Shown one piece after another: positions 1 to 7,815 of a stretch of DNA of 64,000 nucleotides. The stretch is from Acidobacteriota bacterium (GTDB lineage: Bacteria > Acidobacteriota > Thermoanaerobaculia > Multivoradales > Multivoraceae), in contig JAJCXN010000004.1 in NCBI GenBank assembly GCA_029263415.1, positions 1-64,000 on the forward strand, written 5' to 3'. Made by a program: the position numbers and the translations under genes. The notes below the pieces were generated by a model, which ran no database searches, was not told the DNA's origin, and was given only the letters and a program-made list of their open reading frames with translations. How positions within the stretch are numbered: the first letter of the stretch is position 1; each line of letters starts with the position of its first letter.

Positions 1-40
1 GCAGTCTCCTCATCAGAAGTACCTGCTCGTTGTGAATCAT
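1..40 (-). CDS. Putative IstA-like transposase, first 13 codons only
   Basis: An ATG at 38-40 on the minus strand is preceded by AGGAGG with an 8-base gap, a very good ribosome binding site, and the frame is open to the window edge. The visible residues are MIHNEQVLLMRRL, which would fit the start of the N-terminal helix-turn-helix of an IS21 IstA transposase, but thirteen residues cannot prove a family. The assignment rests mainly on the terminal repeats just upstream. It could be any small ORF. Confidence 0.35.
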   Translation of the reverse strand, partial: MIHNEQVLLMRRL

Positions 41-70
41 CCCGAGATCCTCCTCGGGTACAACTTTCAC

Positions 71-2101
71 TCAGCGAACAGGAGCCGCGGGACCGGCCAT
101 TCTAATTGGCGCGACCGGCCAAAGTAATTGTCGCGGAACAAGCGCGGATCCGCTGGGTTGTTCCTCGCTTTGCCTGAGTAGCTGCTCGATGAAACTGCTT
201 GCGGAATGCGGGTTCGCCTCGGCCATGGCTAGGACTGCGACTTCATGCCATTGATCGTTGCCAGTACTATCCAATAGCAGGCCCCAGTCTTCCTGCCGCA
301 CGATTTCGAGAGCTGCTAGGTACTCCTGGAACGTCCGGTGCACAAAATCTAGTCCGCTGGTGCCGCTTCTCCGGACGAGGCCGCTTCGCTCGAGCAGAGC
401 CGACAGAACGGGTTCTGCATCAGGCTCCCCGAGTTGAAGGTTCATTTGGGTTAGTTGCGGAAGTACCCGCGCCCGGGCCGCAGCTTCCTCTACCGAGGTG
501 TAGCCATTCCTGACCATCCAATATGCTAAGTCTTGGACGAGCAAACGCTTTTGTGAGTATGAGAAGGTCGCGAGGTCATCTGCGGGAAGACCCCGGTCTT
601 TGTCTCGTCTCTCCAGCAGCATGCTGACGCAGTGCTCGTAGAGTTCGTTGCGGTTTGTTGGGAGATCCATGTTGCGGCGGTAGGAGAGTGCACAGAGCAT
701 TGCGCAGAGCAGCGGATTAGAGCCGATTGAGGAAAGAGCGGGTTCGTCAGAGATTCTCGTGAGGAGGCGTTGCTCGAAAACGGCAGCGTCCTCTTCGGTC
801 TCGATGCCAGTGCCCACCAGGATCTTGCGATGCCAGTACTGGATCAATTGAGTTCGCGTAGCGACGCTGAGTGGTGCAACTGAAAAGCATGGCAAGCCTT
901 TGGGCCGTCGAACGCTTCCCGCGCCACTAAAGACCCCTGGCCGGCTGGCTAGCACCAACCCGGCCTCCGGGTAGAAGTCCATCAGGCCCCGAATCCAATC
1001 GAGAACCTGAGTTCGGCCGTCCGGTGGCACCTCATCGAGACCGTCTATGAGAATTAGGGCTCTGCCGCTCTTGAGCGCCTCCTCCACCCAAGGAAATTCG
1101 AGTGAATCTGCCACTTCAGGCAGGGACGCTCGTATACCCTCGGAGAGTGAAAGCGAACTTCGATCCATGGCTCGGAGTTCGAGGAGGAAGGGTACTCGGC
1201 CGCCTAGGAATGACAGCTCAGCAGGCAGATCGCCAGCCGCCGTCTTTACTGCGAGCCATCGGAGAATCGTTGTCTTGCCCGAACCTGCCTCCCCAACAAT
1301 GCACAAGCGCCCGTCGCGAGGTATGGCCTCGGGGAGAGGGGTCGGTTCGCGTTCTTCGGACGCGACCTGGAGAGACACGTAGGCCAACTCTAGTGAGTAG
1401 CGCTTGAGAGAGTGTGCTACATCGACTCCAAGTAGCTCTAGCTGGTTGAAGCGCCGGGCAACTGCCGCGCGGTAGCCAAACTCGAAATCGCCGGAAGGGT
1501 CCCCGCCAGGTGCTTCTGCCCGCGGCAAAACCGCAGAGATCGTCTCAAGGTCGTCGAGCACTTTGGACAGCTGGCTGCAGGCCAGTTGGGTCCTCTCCAG
1601 CAGGACTCTTGCTGTCGCGTTGGTGAACTGTGGCATCGCGCTGGAGAGGTCGATTGTGCATACAGCGGCTAAGGACACACAGCGGCGAAACAGCTCGCGC
1701 TCAGATTGGGTGAGATCGCTGCACAAATCCGGGTGTTTCTCCTGAACGTGAGAAACGACCTTCTCGGGATCGTAGTCTGCCTTCACCAGCGAGGTCGGTG
1801 TCAAGCAGCCCTTTGCGAGCGCCGCTACTAGTGCCTGAAGTACCGCTTCCTGAGAAGACGGCGCGAGGTAGCTTTGGTCTACCTCCTGGTGGATCCGTTT
1901 TGCGACGCGCCGCTCGAGGTTTTCGATCTCTGACTGGGAGTCGGCGGCTTCGAAAAAGTCGAGTCCCTTGTTCTTCAAGACGTCGATCAATGCGCTTCCG
2001 GCCACCTGATAGGCGTTCTCTTGTGGACCTTTGACCGCTGCATGGAACAGTCCCTTGCAGATGGAAGCGCCGACTGCTATGGCCAGCAACTCTACGGACA
2101 C
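71..2101 (-). CDS. NACHT-domain NTPase (STAND), 3' end interrupted
   Basis: Seen (numbered from GTG 2101): an N-terminal helical region of about 260 residues, then Walker A GEAGSGKTT at 270-278 and Walker B ALILIDGLDEVP at 348-359, followed by the alpha-helical NACHT-associated region. A motif ending in RYSLELAYVSLQV just before the P-loop is typical of bacterial NACHT proteins. Known: bacterial NACHT proteins are signal-transducing NTPases and many protect against phages through a C-terminal sensor. Here the last 22 codons fall in the putative IS end (71-140), so the sensor region after the first HEAT-like helices is probably lost. The frame is open up to 2275, but those extra N-terminal 58 residues are Arg/His-rich and unlike protein; GTG 2101 has AGGG just upstream and is preferred. 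It stands alone and is divergent from the DUF4365 gene. Probably inactive or altered. Confidence 0.8.
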   Translation of the reverse strand: MSVELLAIAVGASICKGLFHAAVKGPQENAYQVAGSALIDVLKNKGLDFFEAADSQSEIENLERRVAKRIHQEVDQSYLAPSSQEAVLQALVAALAKGCLTPTSLVKADYDPEKVVSHVQEKHPDLCSDLTQSERELFRRCVSLAAVCTIDLSSAMPQFTNATARVLLERTQLACSQLSKVLDDLETISAVLPRAEAPGGDPSGDFEFGYRAAVARRFNQLELLGVDVAHSLKRYSLELAYVSLQVASEEREPTPLPEAIPRDGRLCIVGEAGSGKTTILRWLAVKTAAGDLPAELSFLGGRVPFLLELRAMDRSSLSLSEGIRASLPEVADSLEFPWVEEALKSGRALILIDGLDEVPPDGRTQVLDWIRGLMDFYPEAGLVLASRPGVFSGAGSVRRPKGLPCFSVAPLSVATRTQLIQYWHRKILVGTGIETEEDAAVFEQRLLTRISDEPALSSIGSNPLLCAMLCALSYRRNMDLPTNRNELYEHCVSMLLERRDKDRGLPADDLATFSYSQKRLLVQDLAYWMVRNGYTSVEEAAARARVLPQLTQMNLQLGEPDAEPVLSALLERSGLVRRSGTSGLDFVHRTFQEYLAALEIVRQEDWGLLLDSTGNDQWHEVAVLAMAEANPHSASSFIEQLLRQSEEQPSGSALVPRQLLWPVAPIRMAGPAAPVR
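91..134. repeat. Tandem 22-bp repeat, two imperfect copies
   Basis: Copies lie at 91-112 and 113-134. Both start GACCGGCC, share TAATTG and end CGC, with 18 of 22 positions identical. Known: multiple terminal repeats of about this size bind the transposase in IS21-family elements. They are translated as the last residues of the interrupted NACHT frame, which looks accidental. Confidence 0.7.
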
Positions 2102-2850: not shown

Positions 2851-4824
2851 GTGAGAGACCGCGCAACGTCGTTCGCTCCGGCTAGGAGCCCCGAGGAGGA
2901 CTTAGTAGTTTTGCCGAAGCGCCCCGTTCAGCATCAAGTAGAGAATCGCTCGCGACTGATGTTCGAGCAGGTACTTCCTGAAGCGTGGGTATTCCGTCCT
3001 GAAGCACCTGACTACGGGATAGATGGGACGGTCGAAGTATTTGATGGGGAGGGCGCGGCTACCGGTCATCGCTTCTTCGTCCAGCTGAAGGGCACTGCGG
3101 CACCCACCTCGGAGAACCCCAAGGTGAGATTGGCTCGAGAGACTTGCGATTACTACATGTCCCTCGAGTTGCCCGTGTTGGTTGTTCTCACGGATCTGGC
3201 GGGGCAAAGGCTCTTTGCTAAGTGGTTTCACCAGTTTGACCCCTTCTACGGTGGCGTGGGGGAAAAGTGGATCAGGTTCCCATTTGAACCCGAGGATCTT
3301 TGGACAGTCGAGAGTGTCGAGAGGATTGAAGAAGAGCTGGAGGCACTGAGGAGAATTCGAGCCGGGCTGGGGACCCCGCTTACCCTCGGGGTCAAGGTTA
3401 GGGATTCAACCATCGGTGGTCATTCGAGCGCATCGGTACGAGCTGCGCTCCGCGCAGTGTTTTCGTCAAGCCCGGATGTCTTCAAGTGGGTGCCCGGCCC
3501 CGCTCTTGTCTCTATCGAGGTGACCGATACGGAGACGGTGGTTGCTTTGGCCGGAAGATTCTTCGCGACGCTCCATACGCATGGGGACGACTTAGACCTC
3601 GACTTCTTCGCGCCAGACGTGGGCTTGCTCTTGGCCGTAGTCCTGGAACGGGCTGGCCAGACGGCTACAGCCGCGCAAGTAGCTTTGACCTTCGCCGAAA
3701 ACTCCCGGCTTGTTGCCGATCCATGGTTCGGTTTGCATCTGTCGAGGTTGCTTGCTCGGGCTCATCGGGTAAGGGGGGCGCTGGGTCTCTCGAGGCGACT
3801 TCTCGAAGAAGGCCGAGGGTTGGCCACAGCCGACTACCTTCTGGCCGCGTGCTTGAGGGAAAGTGCTAGGCGAAGCAGTAGCGTCAGAGAGTCCATTGAG
3901 CGGTACTTCGAGTGGCGCCAGGGACATGAGCAATCTGTCGGTGAGAATTCCGGCGTGTTCCACTACAACTATGGCAATTTTTTGGCCTCAGTTGATGACC
4001 TGCGTGGCGCGGTACGCGAGTATCGTGCGGCCTACAGACTAGATCTAGGGTACGGGCAGCGGGACTACTTCAGTTACGAGTTGGCTGGCATTCTCTTTCA
4101 GGCGGGGCGGTATCGCCTCTCGCAAGCTCTTTATGCTCGCGCCCTTGAGTTAGGTGCACCGAAGCGTTGTCACGCCCTACGTGGGGATGCGCTACTGCAT
4201 GCGGGCAACTTTGAAGACGCTCTCACAGAGTTCACCGCGTATTTTGAAACGGCCGAAGACGTAGAGGCAGAATGGGTCCTGAAGGCGACCGCCGTACAGC
4301 ATCTTCTGGGCGCGTTGGGTCTGAAGCGGCAGGCACGAAATAGGTTCCCGGCCCTGAGCATCGTTGCTTCTGCAGTGGCGATGGAAACCCCGGACGCATC
4401 TCAGTTCCAGCGAGCGCTAGAGGAAGACGCGATGTGCGCGGCTGCTTGGGCTAATCTGGGTGTAGCGGCCAGTCTCGCCCAGGACCAGAGTGCAGCATTC
4501 ACAGCATTTCTTCTGTCCGCGCTCTTCGATACTTCGAACGCCCGAGCATGGGCGGAGACGATGCTGTTTGGAGTCAGCAGTTCCCAAGAAAACAAAACGC
4601 TAGCTTTGGTTTTCTCTGCGGCGTCGCAAGCGGTTCCGCAAGAGCAGATTGTTGGCGAGCTTGAGGCGTACGTGGAGAGAGGTGCGATCCCGAACACTGT
4701 CGCAAGCGCCATAAGTGATGCTCTAGACGAAGTGAAGAACGCTGAACCTGACCGGCAGAAGGCGCGAGTTCGGATTCTGGGTGAGGAGGGCCAGTACGAG
4801 GCGGTCGAGTTGGAGAGCTGGTGA
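2851..4824 (+). CDS. DUF4365 nuclease-like domain fused to TPR repeats
   Basis: A 657-residue protein with a GTG start at 2851. Residues 27-150 form a DUF4365 domain: E31, the DYGIDG motif with D54 and D58, E62 in TVEV, and Q78-L-K80. These resemble the active-site set of PD-(D/E)xK nucleases. Known: DUF4365 proteins are restriction-endonuclease-like and often sit in defence loci. Residues about 285-600 contain repeated helical pairs (for example GALGLSRRLLEEGRGLATADYL and HYNYGNFLASVDDLRGAVREY) typical of TPR repeats. Inference: a nuclease effector joined to a TPR sensing or scaffolding arm. The stop overlaps a GTG in the frame of the next gene, so the two may be co-expressed. No signal peptide or membrane segment is seen. 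Substrate and trigger are unknown. Confidence 0.75.
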   Translation: MRDRATSFAPARSPEEDLVVLPKRPVQHQVENRSRLMFEQVLPEAWVFRPEAPDYGIDGTVEVFDGEGAATGHRFFVQLKGTAAPTSENPKVRLARETCDYYMSLELPVLVVLTDLAGQRLFAKWFHQFDPFYGGVGEKWIRFPFEPEDLWTVESVERIEEELEALRRIRAGLGTPLTLGVKVRDSTIGGHSSASVRAALRAVFSSSPDVFKWVPGPALVSIEVTDTETVVALAGRFFATLHTHGDDLDLDFFAPDVGLLLAVVLERAGQTATAAQVALTFAENSRLVADPWFGLHLSRLLARAHRVRGALGLSRRLLEEGRGLATADYLLAACLRESARRSSSVRESIERYFEWRQGHEQSVGENSGVFHYNYGNFLASVDDLRGAVREYRAAYRLDLGYGQRDYFSYELAGILFQAGRYRLSQALYARALELGAPKRCHALRGDALLHAGNFEDALTEFTAYFETAEDVEAEWVLKATAVQHLLGALGLKRQARNRFPALSIVASAVAMETPDASQFQRALEEDAMCAAAWANLGVAASLAQDQSAAFTAFLLSALFDTSNARAWAETMLFGVSSSQENKTLALVFSAASQAVPQEQIVGELEAYVERGAIPNTVASAISDALDEVKNAEPDRQKARVRILGEEGQYEAVELESW

Positions 4825-5027
4825 GAGCCCCTTCTGAGGCTCTTCGGGAACGAGGGCCTTCCCCAGGCGAGTTCGCCCGTCCCCGCGCAGATTCCCTTTT
4901 GACCGAGTCCTCATCAGAGAAGGAGCAGGTGTGCGCCGGTCGAGTTGAGCCCTGCAAGGGTAGGTCACTTGTTTGGACGGACAATGGCTCGAACACCGAC
5001 CAGCATTCGGTGCAGCCTCCGCGGCCT

Positions 5028-5051
5028 AAAATGAACGGCGCGGTTCATTTT
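5028..5051. promoter_or_regulatory. Perfect palindrome upstream of MerR-like gene
   Basis: Arms AAAATGAAC (5028-5036) and GTTCATTTT (5043-5051) are exact inverted repeats around a 6-bp GGCGCG centre. The site ends 15 bases before the ATG at 5067. Position and symmetry suit an operator for a dimeric regulator, most simply the adjacent gene's own product. It is AT-rich at both ends in a GC-rich background. No consensus -10/-35 could be assigned around it. Confidence 0.6.
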
Positions 5052-5066
5052 GATAGAGTCTGCAGT

Positions 5067-5894
5067 ATGTCCACGAAAGACACATTCTCGGCCGGCGAAG
5101 CCAAAGAACTGTCCGGTTTGTCCAGCCGCCAGTTGAATGACTGGGAAGCCCGTGGTGCAGTTCAGAGCGAGCGGGCGAAGGCCGGCGAGTGGAGGAAGTT
5201 CACGGCGAAACAAGCGTTTGCTCTCGTGGTCGCCAGCGAACTCAGGCGGGTGTGCCACGTTCCCGTTGGTCAAGTCTCGTGGATTGTGGACTTCATGAAT
5301 CAGGAGAAGGCCAATCATTTTGAAGCTGCCCTGGATCTCATGAAGGCTGGGCTCCACGTGTTTCTCCTGACCGATCTAGAGCGAACGTTCGTGATGGACT
5401 CGGACCTTGAGATCCAAGATTTGATGATGCACGGCTTCTTCCGAACCGAGTCACATAGCTCTCACGTGCTCCTCCGGCTAAACCACCTCGTTAATCGCCT
5501 CTTGGGCCTTAAGGGCATACCACCTTTAGAAGCGTCGCGCGACTTCTACGAGGCGACGATGCGAGGCCGTGCGCAATTGTCCGTGCGCACTCGGGCGGAG
5601 ATGGAAGTCCTGCAGGCGGTTCGAACCGGCGGGTTCGACAAGGTCGAGATCAAGCTGAAGGACGGCAAGGTCACGCAGATTAGTGGAGAGGGCTCCGTCT
5701 CCGCTGCGGATGTTTCTGAGGACGGAGAGGGAGTCACGGTCTTGAATGGAGAAGAGTTCGAAACCGTTACCCTCACAAAGTCAAATGGGCGAGTCACCCA
5801 TGTGAAGCGCCGTGTCCCAAAAAAGTACGGGAAGACGGAAAATGAGGGCACCCTTTTTGTAGTGGCCGTGGGTGAATCTGAGGAAGACAAGTGA
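5067..5894 (+). CDS. MerR-like DNA-binding regulator
   Basis: A 275-residue protein. Residues 7-60 (FSAGEAKELSGLSSRQLNDW then ARGAV and KFTAKQAFALVVASELRRV) form a MerR-type winged helix-turn-helix. The middle is helical and of unknown role; the C-terminal 100 residues are rich in Glu and Val and probably beta-structured. The frame is open from GTG 4821, which overlaps the preceding stop, but the extra 82 residues look non-coding and contain the palindrome, so ATG 5067 is chosen although no strong ribosome binding site precedes it. Context: last gene before the small ORF and recombinase of the island, so it may control either the DUF4365 gene or the recombinase. No metal-binding cysteines are seen, so it is probably not a metal sensor. 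Confidence 0.6.
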   Translation: MSTKDTFSAGEAKELSGLSSRQLNDWEARGAVQSERAKAGEWRKFTAKQAFALVVASELRRVCHVPVGQVSWIVDFMNQEKANHFEAALDLMKAGLHVFLLTDLERTFVMDSDLEIQDLMMHGFFRTESHSSHVLLRLNHLVNRLLGLKGIPPLEASRDFYEATMRGRAQLSVRTRAEMEVLQAVRTGGFDKVEIKLKDGKVTQISGEGSVSAADVSEDGEGVTVLNGEEFETVTLTKSNGRVTHVKRRVPKKYGKTENEGTLFVVAVGESEEDK

Positions 5895-6029: not shown

Positions 6030-6254
6030 ATGCTCAGCTTGGAAGAGTGCCGAAAGTTTCTCGGTGATGAAGTGCAGGTCAGTGACGAAGAACTAGATCG
6101 CGTCCGCGCAGACCTTTATGGTGTAGCGCTGGCGATAGTTGAACATCTGGCGGCGGGTGTGGAGGAGGCTCCCCTGGGCCCGGCCGCCGAGCCTGCATGG
6201 ACTCCGCAACGCCCGATCCCCATTCGGGTCCCATCCAACAGCAAGGCCGGTTAG
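6030..6254 (+). CDS. Small hypothetical protein before the recombinase
   Basis: A 74-residue ORF. The first 45 residues (MLSLEECRKFLGDEVQVSDE and following) look like a genuine acidic helical protein; the tail is Pro/Ala-rich. It ends 8 bases before the recombinase ATG, so the two are probably co-transcribed. A short helical protein in this position can be an accessory or directionality factor, but nothing in the sequence proves that. Confidence 0.5.
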   Translation: MLSLEECRKFLGDEVQVSDEELDRVRADLYGVALAIVEHLAAGVEEAPLGPAAEPAWTPQRPIPIRVPSNSKAG

Positions 6255-6262
6255 GAAGAACC

Positions 6263-7780
6263 ATGCGGGGAGTCGTCTACGTCCGTGTCTCGACTCAAAG
6301 GCAGGTTGAGAACCTCAGCCTGGCCACGCAGAAAGACGCCTGCGCAAAGTACTGTGTTCGTGAGGGCATCAAGATCGCTCGCTACTTCGAGGAACGCGGG
6401 GAGAGTGCTAAGACCCCCGATCGTCCCGAATTCAACGAGATGCTCGCCTACTGCCGGGAAGCGAAGGTGGAAGTTGTTGTCGTCTACTCCCTGACGCGCT
6501 TCTCGCGGCAAACACACGACCATCAGGTCGTTCGTGCGTATCTGAGCAAGTTCGGAGTGTCGCTCCGTTCTGTGACGGAGCCCTTCGATGGCTCGTCCAG
6601 TGGCAAGCTAATGGAGAACATCCTTTCGTCCTTCGCTCAGTTCGACAATGATGTCCGTGCTGAAAGAACCGCTGCAGGCCTTTCCGCTGCGAAGGAAAGT
6701 GGTCGCTGGCCTCACCCAGCCCCGCTTGGCTACCGGAACCAGGTCGGCGTCATCGAAAAGAACATTGAGCCCGACCCAGAGAAGGCACCCTTAGTCAAAG
6801 AGGCATTCCGTTTGATGGCCACTGGCCGTTTCACACAACGTCAGGTACTCGATCAGGTGCACTCCCTTGGGCTTCGAACCAAAGCCGGGAATCGGTTGAG
6901 CCCTCAGTCATTTGGGGCGCTGTTGAGAAAACCGATTTACGCCGGAATCATCGTCGACGCCCCGACGGGCAGGCGCTTCGAGGGAGCGTTCGAGGGGTTG
7001 GTAGACCCAGCTGATTTTGAGAATACTCAAGCGGTTCTCTCTGGTCGGCGACCGTCTGTAAGGCCGTACCAGAGAAACAACCCGGAGTTCCCTCTCCGCG
7101 TCTTCGTTAGATGCACCCACTGCTCAACGCCGCTGACTGGCAGCAGATCCACCGGACGCTCGAAACAGTATGCGTACTACAGCTGCCGAGCGAAGAAGGC
7201 TGTTTGTCGCGCTCGATTCAACGTCCGCAAAGAAGTGTTGGAAGAGCGGTTCGTCGAACTCTTGGAACAGCTGGTACCAGAGAGGCCCTACATGAACCTG
7301 TTTCGCGAGATCGTCCTCGACACTTGGCGCACGCGTCAAACCGATGCGCGCGGCCTTCGAAGAAAACTCCAGCGCCGAATCCAAGATCTCGAAACTCGAG
7401 AGGAAGAATTGGTCTCAGCGCATCTGCACAAGGGCAACCTCCCGGAAGACACCTACAGCCGCATGATGGGAAAACTCCACCAGGAACTCGCCGAAGCGCG
7501 TTTGGCGGTGCACGACGCGTCCGGGGCGGAACTCGATGTGGAGACCATGCTGGGGTTTGCCGAAACCCTACTTCTGGATGCTCCCAAGCTATGGAAGACG
7601 TTCGACCTCGGACAGAAACAGCGGTTCCAGAAGATCCTGTTTCCGGAGGGGCTGTCCTTTGACGGCGGTTCCTTTGGAACCGCAGCAACTAGCCCAGTAT
7701 TCAGCTACTTGCGGCACTTGAGCGCTAACGAGGAAGGAGTGGTAGCCCGTACGGGATTCGAACCCGTGTTACCGGCGTGA
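6263..7780 (+). CDS. Large serine recombinase (site-specific integrase)
   Basis: A 505-residue protein starting at ATG 6263 after AGGAAG. Residues 3-150 are the resolvase catalytic domain with nucleophile Ser10 in YVRVST, then YSLTRFSR (75-82) and the ERTAAGL helix (134-140). Residues 155-265 match the recombinase DNA-binding domain, and Cys284, 287, 308 and 315 form a zinc ribbon. Residues 360-430 are a coiled coil. Known: such proteins integrate and excise phages and islands. The last 13 residues are encoded antisense within the tRNA-Glu gene, and the stop codon overlaps the anticodon. This suggests that the junction was formed by integration. The open frame extends back to 6197, but ATG 6263 fits the family start. 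Confidence 0.92.
   Translation: MRGVVYVRVSTQRQVENLSLATQKDACAKYCVREGIKIARYFEERGESAKTPDRPEFNEMLAYCREAKVEVVVVYSLTRFSRQTHDHQVVRAYLSKFGVSLRSVTEPFDGSSSGKLMENILSSFAQFDNDVRAERTAAGLSAAKESGRWPHPAPLGYRNQVGVIEKNIEPDPEKAPLVKEAFRLMATGRFTQRQVLDQVHSLGLRTKAGNRLSPQSFGALLRKPIYAGIIVDAPTGRRFEGAFEGLVDPADFENTQAVLSGRRPSVRPYQRNNPEFPLRVFVRCTHCSTPLTGSRSTGRSKQYAYYSCRAKKAVCRARFNVRKEVLEERFVELLEQLVPERPYMNLFREIVLDTWRTRQTDARGLRRKLQRRIQDLETREEELVSAHLHKGNLPEDTYSRMMGKLHQELAEARLAVHDASGAELDVETMLGFAETLLLDAPKLWKTFDLGQKQRFQKILFPEGLSFDGGSFGTAATSPVFSYLRHLSANEEGVVARTGFEPVLPA
7739..7780. other. Probable attachment-site junction at tRNA-Glu
   Basis: The recombinase reading frame runs into the 3' half of the intact tRNA-Glu gene. A site where an integrase gene touches a tRNA 3' end is normally the chromosomal junction of an integrated element. 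The matching junction, expected as a partial tRNA-Glu copy, would lie left of the window. The exact crossover point cannot be read from one junction. Confidence 0.5.
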
Positions 7781-7815
7781 GAGGCCGGCGTCCTAGACCC
7801 CTAGACGAACGGGCC
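7740..7815 (-). tRNA. tRNA-Glu, anticodon CTC
   Basis: The minus-strand sequence folds into a full cloverleaf: acceptor GGCCCGT/ACGGGCT, anticodon arm CCGGC-CTCTCAC-GCCGG with anticodon CTC (rc at 7779-7781), T-arm ACGGG-TTCGAAT-CCCGT, and an encoded CCA at 7740-7742. Pair 1:72 is a G-U wobble instead of G-C. The 3' end faces the serine recombinase. Confidence 0.93.

Follow-up and report, generated by a model that had tools for sequence, protein, structure and literature searches.

The window analysed here is a stretch of 64,000 bases, namely bases 1-64000 of contig C4, which belongs to a draft genome of 6.89 Mb made up of 60 contigs; since it is taken from base 1 of C4, its first base is the first base of the contig and hence a contig end. 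Two features meet close to this end (Table 1): the 5' part of a gene for an NNH1-NACHT protein, and the terminus of an insertion sequence (IS) of the IS21 family. When the frame that starts at 2101 was compared with Pfam, both NNH1 (72.6 bits) and NACHT (PF05729, 74.1 bits) were found above their cut-offs, and the Walker A (GEAGSGKTT) and Walker B (ALILIDGLDE) motifs as well as the FVHRTFQEYLAA segment are intact in the retained residues. In its present form the product has 653 native residues, followed by the junction codon and then by 22 residues contributed by the IS. No leucine-rich repeats (LRRs) were detected by Pfam in the truncated frame. We regard the gene as a putative defence gene, a label that rests on its architecture because no PADLOC model matched the NACHT protein; the NCBIfam model EruA gave a weak, partial match (37.1 bits against a cut-off of 1000).

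Table 1. Features at the junction between the NNH1-NACHT gene and the insertion sequence (window coordinates).
Feature	Position	Strand	Remarks
5' part of NNH1-NACHT gene	141-2101	-	653 native residues; likely GTG start at 2101, assigned by eye
IS-derived end of the NACHT frame	71-139	-	22 sense codons (139-74) and stop TGA (73-71); the junction falls within codon 142-140
istA-side (left) terminal 140 bp of IS21-family insertion sequence	1-140	-	element extends past the contig start; recurs at sister sites
Inner terminal repeat L2	91-112		matches the outer unit at 18/22 positions
Outer terminal repeat L1 (113-134) and tip GGAACA	113-140		tip is 5'-TGTTCC read from the other strand
First 13 codons of istA	1-40	-	begins with ATG (40-38), preceded by a likely ribosome-binding site, GAGGAGG (55-49)
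Predicted 6-bp target site AGCGCG	141-146		inferred from four sister copies; the missing partner should begin CGCGCT

Further into the window a gene for a large serine recombinase (6197-7780; Resolvase, Recombinase and Zn-ribbon) overlaps the 3' end of a tRNA-Glu gene (7740-7815, minus strand, anticodon ctc). Between the NACHT gene and the recombinase lie a DUF4365 protein (2851-4824) with a weak TPR match and a weak PADLOC match to Aga_REase-PNTD1-PNTD2 (E 1.1e-8), and a second protein, which has an HTH of the MerR type (4821-5894). The region to the left of the recombinase, the NACHT gene included, may be an island integrated at tRNA-Glu. At C44:266018-266061, around which no tRNA gene was found, 44 bp of the tRNA-Glu 3' end (window 7740-7783) recur exactly, and it is possible that this copy is an attachment-site duplicate or the scar of an island.

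An earlier, sequence-only reading of this DNA had described an abrupt change in the NACHT frame at about 140, two 22-bp tandem repeats, a 5'-TGTTCC terminus and a same-strand open reading frame with a ribosome-binding site, and had taken these together for the end of an IS21-like element. Each of these features was recovered and could be placed more exactly. The breakpoint between the NACHT gene and the IS is sharp and lies at 140/141, with the GGAACA tip following the outer repeat. The two tandem units are identical at 18 of 22 positions, a value not reached once when the bases of the 140 bp were simply shuffled 2000 times (0/2000), and the repeat identity was likewise not matched in 1000 shuffles in which any period from 18 to 26 was accepted. 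The open reading frame continues, on a sister copy in contig C53, as a fragment of the IstA transposase. The end at 1-140 is more than a chance arrangement and recurs at seven places in the genome.

Six of these seven left ends are identical and the C53 copy agrees at 139 of 140 positions. The identical copies, that of C4 included, all sit at contig ends (C34, C27 and C12 over 140 bp, C5 and C3 over 138 bp), which is what a short-read assembly interrupted by a repeat should produce, and it is for this reason that C4 itself ends at base 1. The flanks of the seven left ends all differ outside the tip. The element is therefore multicopy and, on the features set out below, of the IS21 family, and the identity of its ends suggests that it has been active recently. 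The window's own copy shows only the first 13 codons of istA. On C53 the same frame runs on to the contig end as a 123-aa IstA fragment, which matches the IS21 transposase model NF033546 of NCBIfam with an E-value of 7.9e-11; its score of 42 bits falls below the cut-off of 160 because it is a fragment. Over 123 aa it shares 46% identity with the IstA of a same-family genome (180.9 bits with NF033546), in which istA overlaps istB by 4 bp. At the opposite side of the element, an istB-side end on C19 encodes the last 43 residues of IstB, 55% identical over 38 aa to IstB of the same-family genome.

A search of the genome with PF01695 did not return the C19 IstB C-terminus among its matches; those returned are situated elsewhere and were not assigned to the window's element. 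PF22483 had no match in the genome, which is expected if the body of the element is missing from the assembly. No complete copy of the element, which would measure roughly 2.5 kb judging from the istA and istB lengths of a relative, was found in the assembly. The smallest contig returned has 2519 bases. Contigs under about 2.5 kb seem to be absent, so that smaller contigs, and probably the element body with them, are missing. The start of C20 (1-141) holds a 3' fragment of istB from the same element; it matches the one at the end of C19 exactly, is fused to other sequence and represents a truncated or rearranged copy. The start of C56 (1-640) carries a remnant of another IS21-type element with an IstB C-terminus (PF01695), located directly after what appears, as read by eye, to be the N-terminal part of a group II intron reverse transcriptase.

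Both ends of the element have direct repeats, two per terminal inverted repeat (18/22 identical on the left, 21/24 on the right), and the left (GGAACA) and right (GGGACA) tips both present the terminal CA-3' of the IS21 family. Comparison by eye of the ends of two same-family elements showed no clear common terminal repeat, so the repeats are not confirmed in relatives. The IS21 family is characterised by istA and istB, two direct repeats per end and a CA tip (PMC10122671). The element described here shares with this family, whose IstA transposase acts with IstB as AAA+ helper, an IstA fragment, an IstB C-terminus, the repeats, the 3'-CA and a target duplication of fixed length, which is 6 bp here and 5 bp as observed in the system of PMC10122671. 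It also differs in being known from partial copies.

The duplication was recognised by pairing the two kinds of end. Ends of the istB side were sought with the outer repeat, with up to three mismatches over the whole genome and up to four edits in the contig ends. Apart from the seven left ends, this gave four sites bearing the tip GCGGGACA, in C15, C46, C48 and C19, and no further convincing istB-side end appeared at either threshold. Each of the four has a left end as its partner (C34/C46, C27/C15, C12/C48 and C3/C19): the 6 bp just outside it are the exact reverse complement of those just outside the partner, which marks a target duplication. At 5, 7, 8 or 9 bp no ends could be paired, and at 4 bp one pair was obtained (C27/C48). 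If equal base frequencies are assumed, a given right end has a chance of 7/4096 of agreeing over 6 bp with any of the seven left ends, and by hand estimate the chance of four out of four is about 1e-11. If the element and one copy of the duplication are taken out and C27 is fused to C15, the result is a 644-codon open frame, with MacB_PCD and FtsX flanking the joint. The other three joined sites have no recognised gene across the joint: C3/C19 has a frame of 153 codons, and C34/C46 and C12/C48 have none above 150 codons. As a by-product, pairing contig ends in this way links four contig pairs of the draft assembly.

These results bear out much of what had been proposed for the IS. Its assignment to the IS21 family stands on the pieces of istA and istB, the double terminal repeats, the CA-3' tips and the 6-bp duplications at four sister copies, and a transposase frame does lie beyond the end, as seen on the C53 copy. 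The proposal to look leftwards for istA, istB and the second end, and for a target duplication of 4-8 bp, was answered on the sister copies (C53 and C19 for the genes, four copies for the duplication), but the second end and second flank of the window's own copy were not found. The left ends of C4, C5 and C53 (three of seven) have no partner in the assembly, and the istB-side junction of the C4 copy is likewise not found there. A 6-bp duplication is nevertheless predicted for the C4 insertion from the behaviour of its sisters.

An IS end wrongly joined to the NACHT gene during assembly would fit with the element being a collapsed repeat whose six identical copies all sit at contig ends. We regard such an artefact as extremely improbable, as the join is internal to the contig, 140 bases away from its end, and coincides exactly with the tip of the IS, and four of the contig-end sister copies are validated by their paired 6-bp duplications.

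Comparison with related NACHT proteins helped to define what the gene has lost. Relatives were scanned across the named genomes and the best 80 of 475 were taken. Among these best 80, the alignment reaches residue 643 or later of 654 in 76, and in all 80 the frame continues past the last aligned residue; in the 79 whose frames are closed the additional part measures 85 to 537 residues, with a median of 395, and is of at least 150 residues in 78. The closest same-order relative (G060:C762, 34% identical) can be aligned as far as the final native residues (EQPSGSA against EADSGHA) and continues for 537 residues past the aligned end. The sequence-only reading had held that the last 22 codons of the frame come from the IS and that the sensor end of the protein is missing. 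On both points the comparison agrees: the 22 codons after the junction (139-74) are IS sequence and belong to the element that recurs at the other copies, and matching to the relatives stops at the junction, without extending through to position 71, while the C-terminal part that they possess is absent here.

The post-junction region was aligned in a hand-picked set of 16 of the 80 relatives. All 16 segments have two prolines, a glycine and a leucine in common, without exception, and a consensus LLAVACLE is located near their start. In the relatives this is a conserved helical region, often followed by LRRs. The insertion is situated just before this conserved post-NACHT helical region, and the helical part and the C-terminus are both absent from the window's gene. 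LRRs score over the cut-off in both of the two closest same-order relatives, and in the C-termini of 10 further relatives they are over the cut-off in four, weak in three and absent in three. Eight of 10 relatives from the organism's own class end, instead of in LRRs, in another domain with a 'P.G.F.MG'-like start, which we take to be typical of formylglycine-generating-enzyme-like domains. With LRRs in the closest relatives and a different domain in other relatives of the class, the lost sensor was probably, if not provably, made of LRRs. The genome also encodes a second NACHT protein (C23:156670-157611; 1116-aa open frame, 27% identical), the C-terminus of which looks more like that of the other class relatives than like an LRR.

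The missing part of the gene was sought elsewhere in the genome. The 541 C-terminal residues of the closest same-order relative revealed no convincing 3' half; the single match, at C23:135555 (E 0.0025), was rejected, as it covers the LRR part and is far from a contig end. In the outer 2.5 kb of 116 of the 120 contig ends, searched with tblastn and a two-sequence profile, the best profile E-value was 3.2, and tblastn of two close relatives against contig ends (116 of 120) gave 0.74 at best. A tblastn match of E 0.002 at the contig ends was discarded, since it came from another open reading frame of locus L070 and not from its NACHT protein. A 16-row profile of the post-junction region returned nothing at E<=1 from the genome; the searches for the 3' half were run here without a positive control, and the profile result shows little for that reason.

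It is conceivable, if unlikely, that the event was one-ended, either because insertion of the IS was followed by deletion of the neighbouring 3' half of the gene or because a rearrangement between two copies joined two places. The rest of the NACHT gene would then be gone from the genome, in keeping with the lack of any trace of it in the assembly, and the fused istB fragment at the start of C20 indicates that copies of the element do get rearranged. Against this, each of the four copies that could be tested is a clean insertion flanked by a 6-bp duplication, and the flank that is missing may sit on a contig too short to have been returned or on one of the two contigs outside the search.

We therefore consider it very probable that an IS21-family element transposed into the NNH1-NACHT gene and truncated its sensing end, most likely producing a loss-of-function allele. 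In this sequence of events a multicopy and recently active element would have entered the 3' third of the gene, in the orientation in which its istA side faces the NACHT 5' part. The truncated product keeps the nucleotide-binding core and loses the C-terminal sensor, and the result would be a null allele of a putative defence gene. The sequence-only reading had expected the truncation to disarm the system, and loss of function is the most likely outcome for the gene. Rather improbably, the truncated protein could still be active, either constitutively or as a dominant regulator, and so not null. The intact Walker A, Walker B and FVHRTFQEYLAA segments would allow for this, and PMC11352923 describes some animal NLRs as constitutively active without their LRR, NLRC4 being the example; the same review, however, describes NLRP3 without its LRR as not constitutively active and unable to respond. 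The conserved helical region preceding the sensor has also been lost here, and a killing protein that is always on would presumably be selected against.

The new stop of the NACHT frame lies 30 bases upstream of istA, and the two are read in the same direction. There is a very small chance that the insertion is no plain knock-out, and that a sensor-less NLR core with its IS tail is expressed while transcription of the NLR gene drives transposition. If this were true, the IS would profit from the promoter of an alarm gene while disabling that gene's sensor.

Returning to insertion and loss of function, the interrupted gene can be placed beside systems already described. NACHT-LRR proteins of bacteria are termed 'bona fide bacterial NLRs' in PMC12169576. 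The window's gene is like them in having NNH1 and NACHT above the Pfam cut-offs and closest relatives with LRRs, and differs in that its helical and C-terminal part has been lost to the IS. Natural IS insertions are known to inactivate defence genes, and those treated in PMC10359306 are mainly of IS1 and IS10 in cas, RM and Dnd genes. The present case is similar in that an IS lies inside a (putative) defence gene, and differs in the combination of an IS21-family element with a NACHT gene, the term 'IS21' being absent from the main text of that paper. Among the titles and abstract openings of the top-ranked papers in the literature, none indicated an IS21 insertion in a NACHT gene. The disruption is real but ordinary, a further example of the already documented insertion of IS elements into defence genes. 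It provides a clearly delimited instance in which an NLR-type gene was disabled by an IS, and it suggests that truncated NACHT frames at contig edges may be genes interrupted by an IS and not natural short forms.
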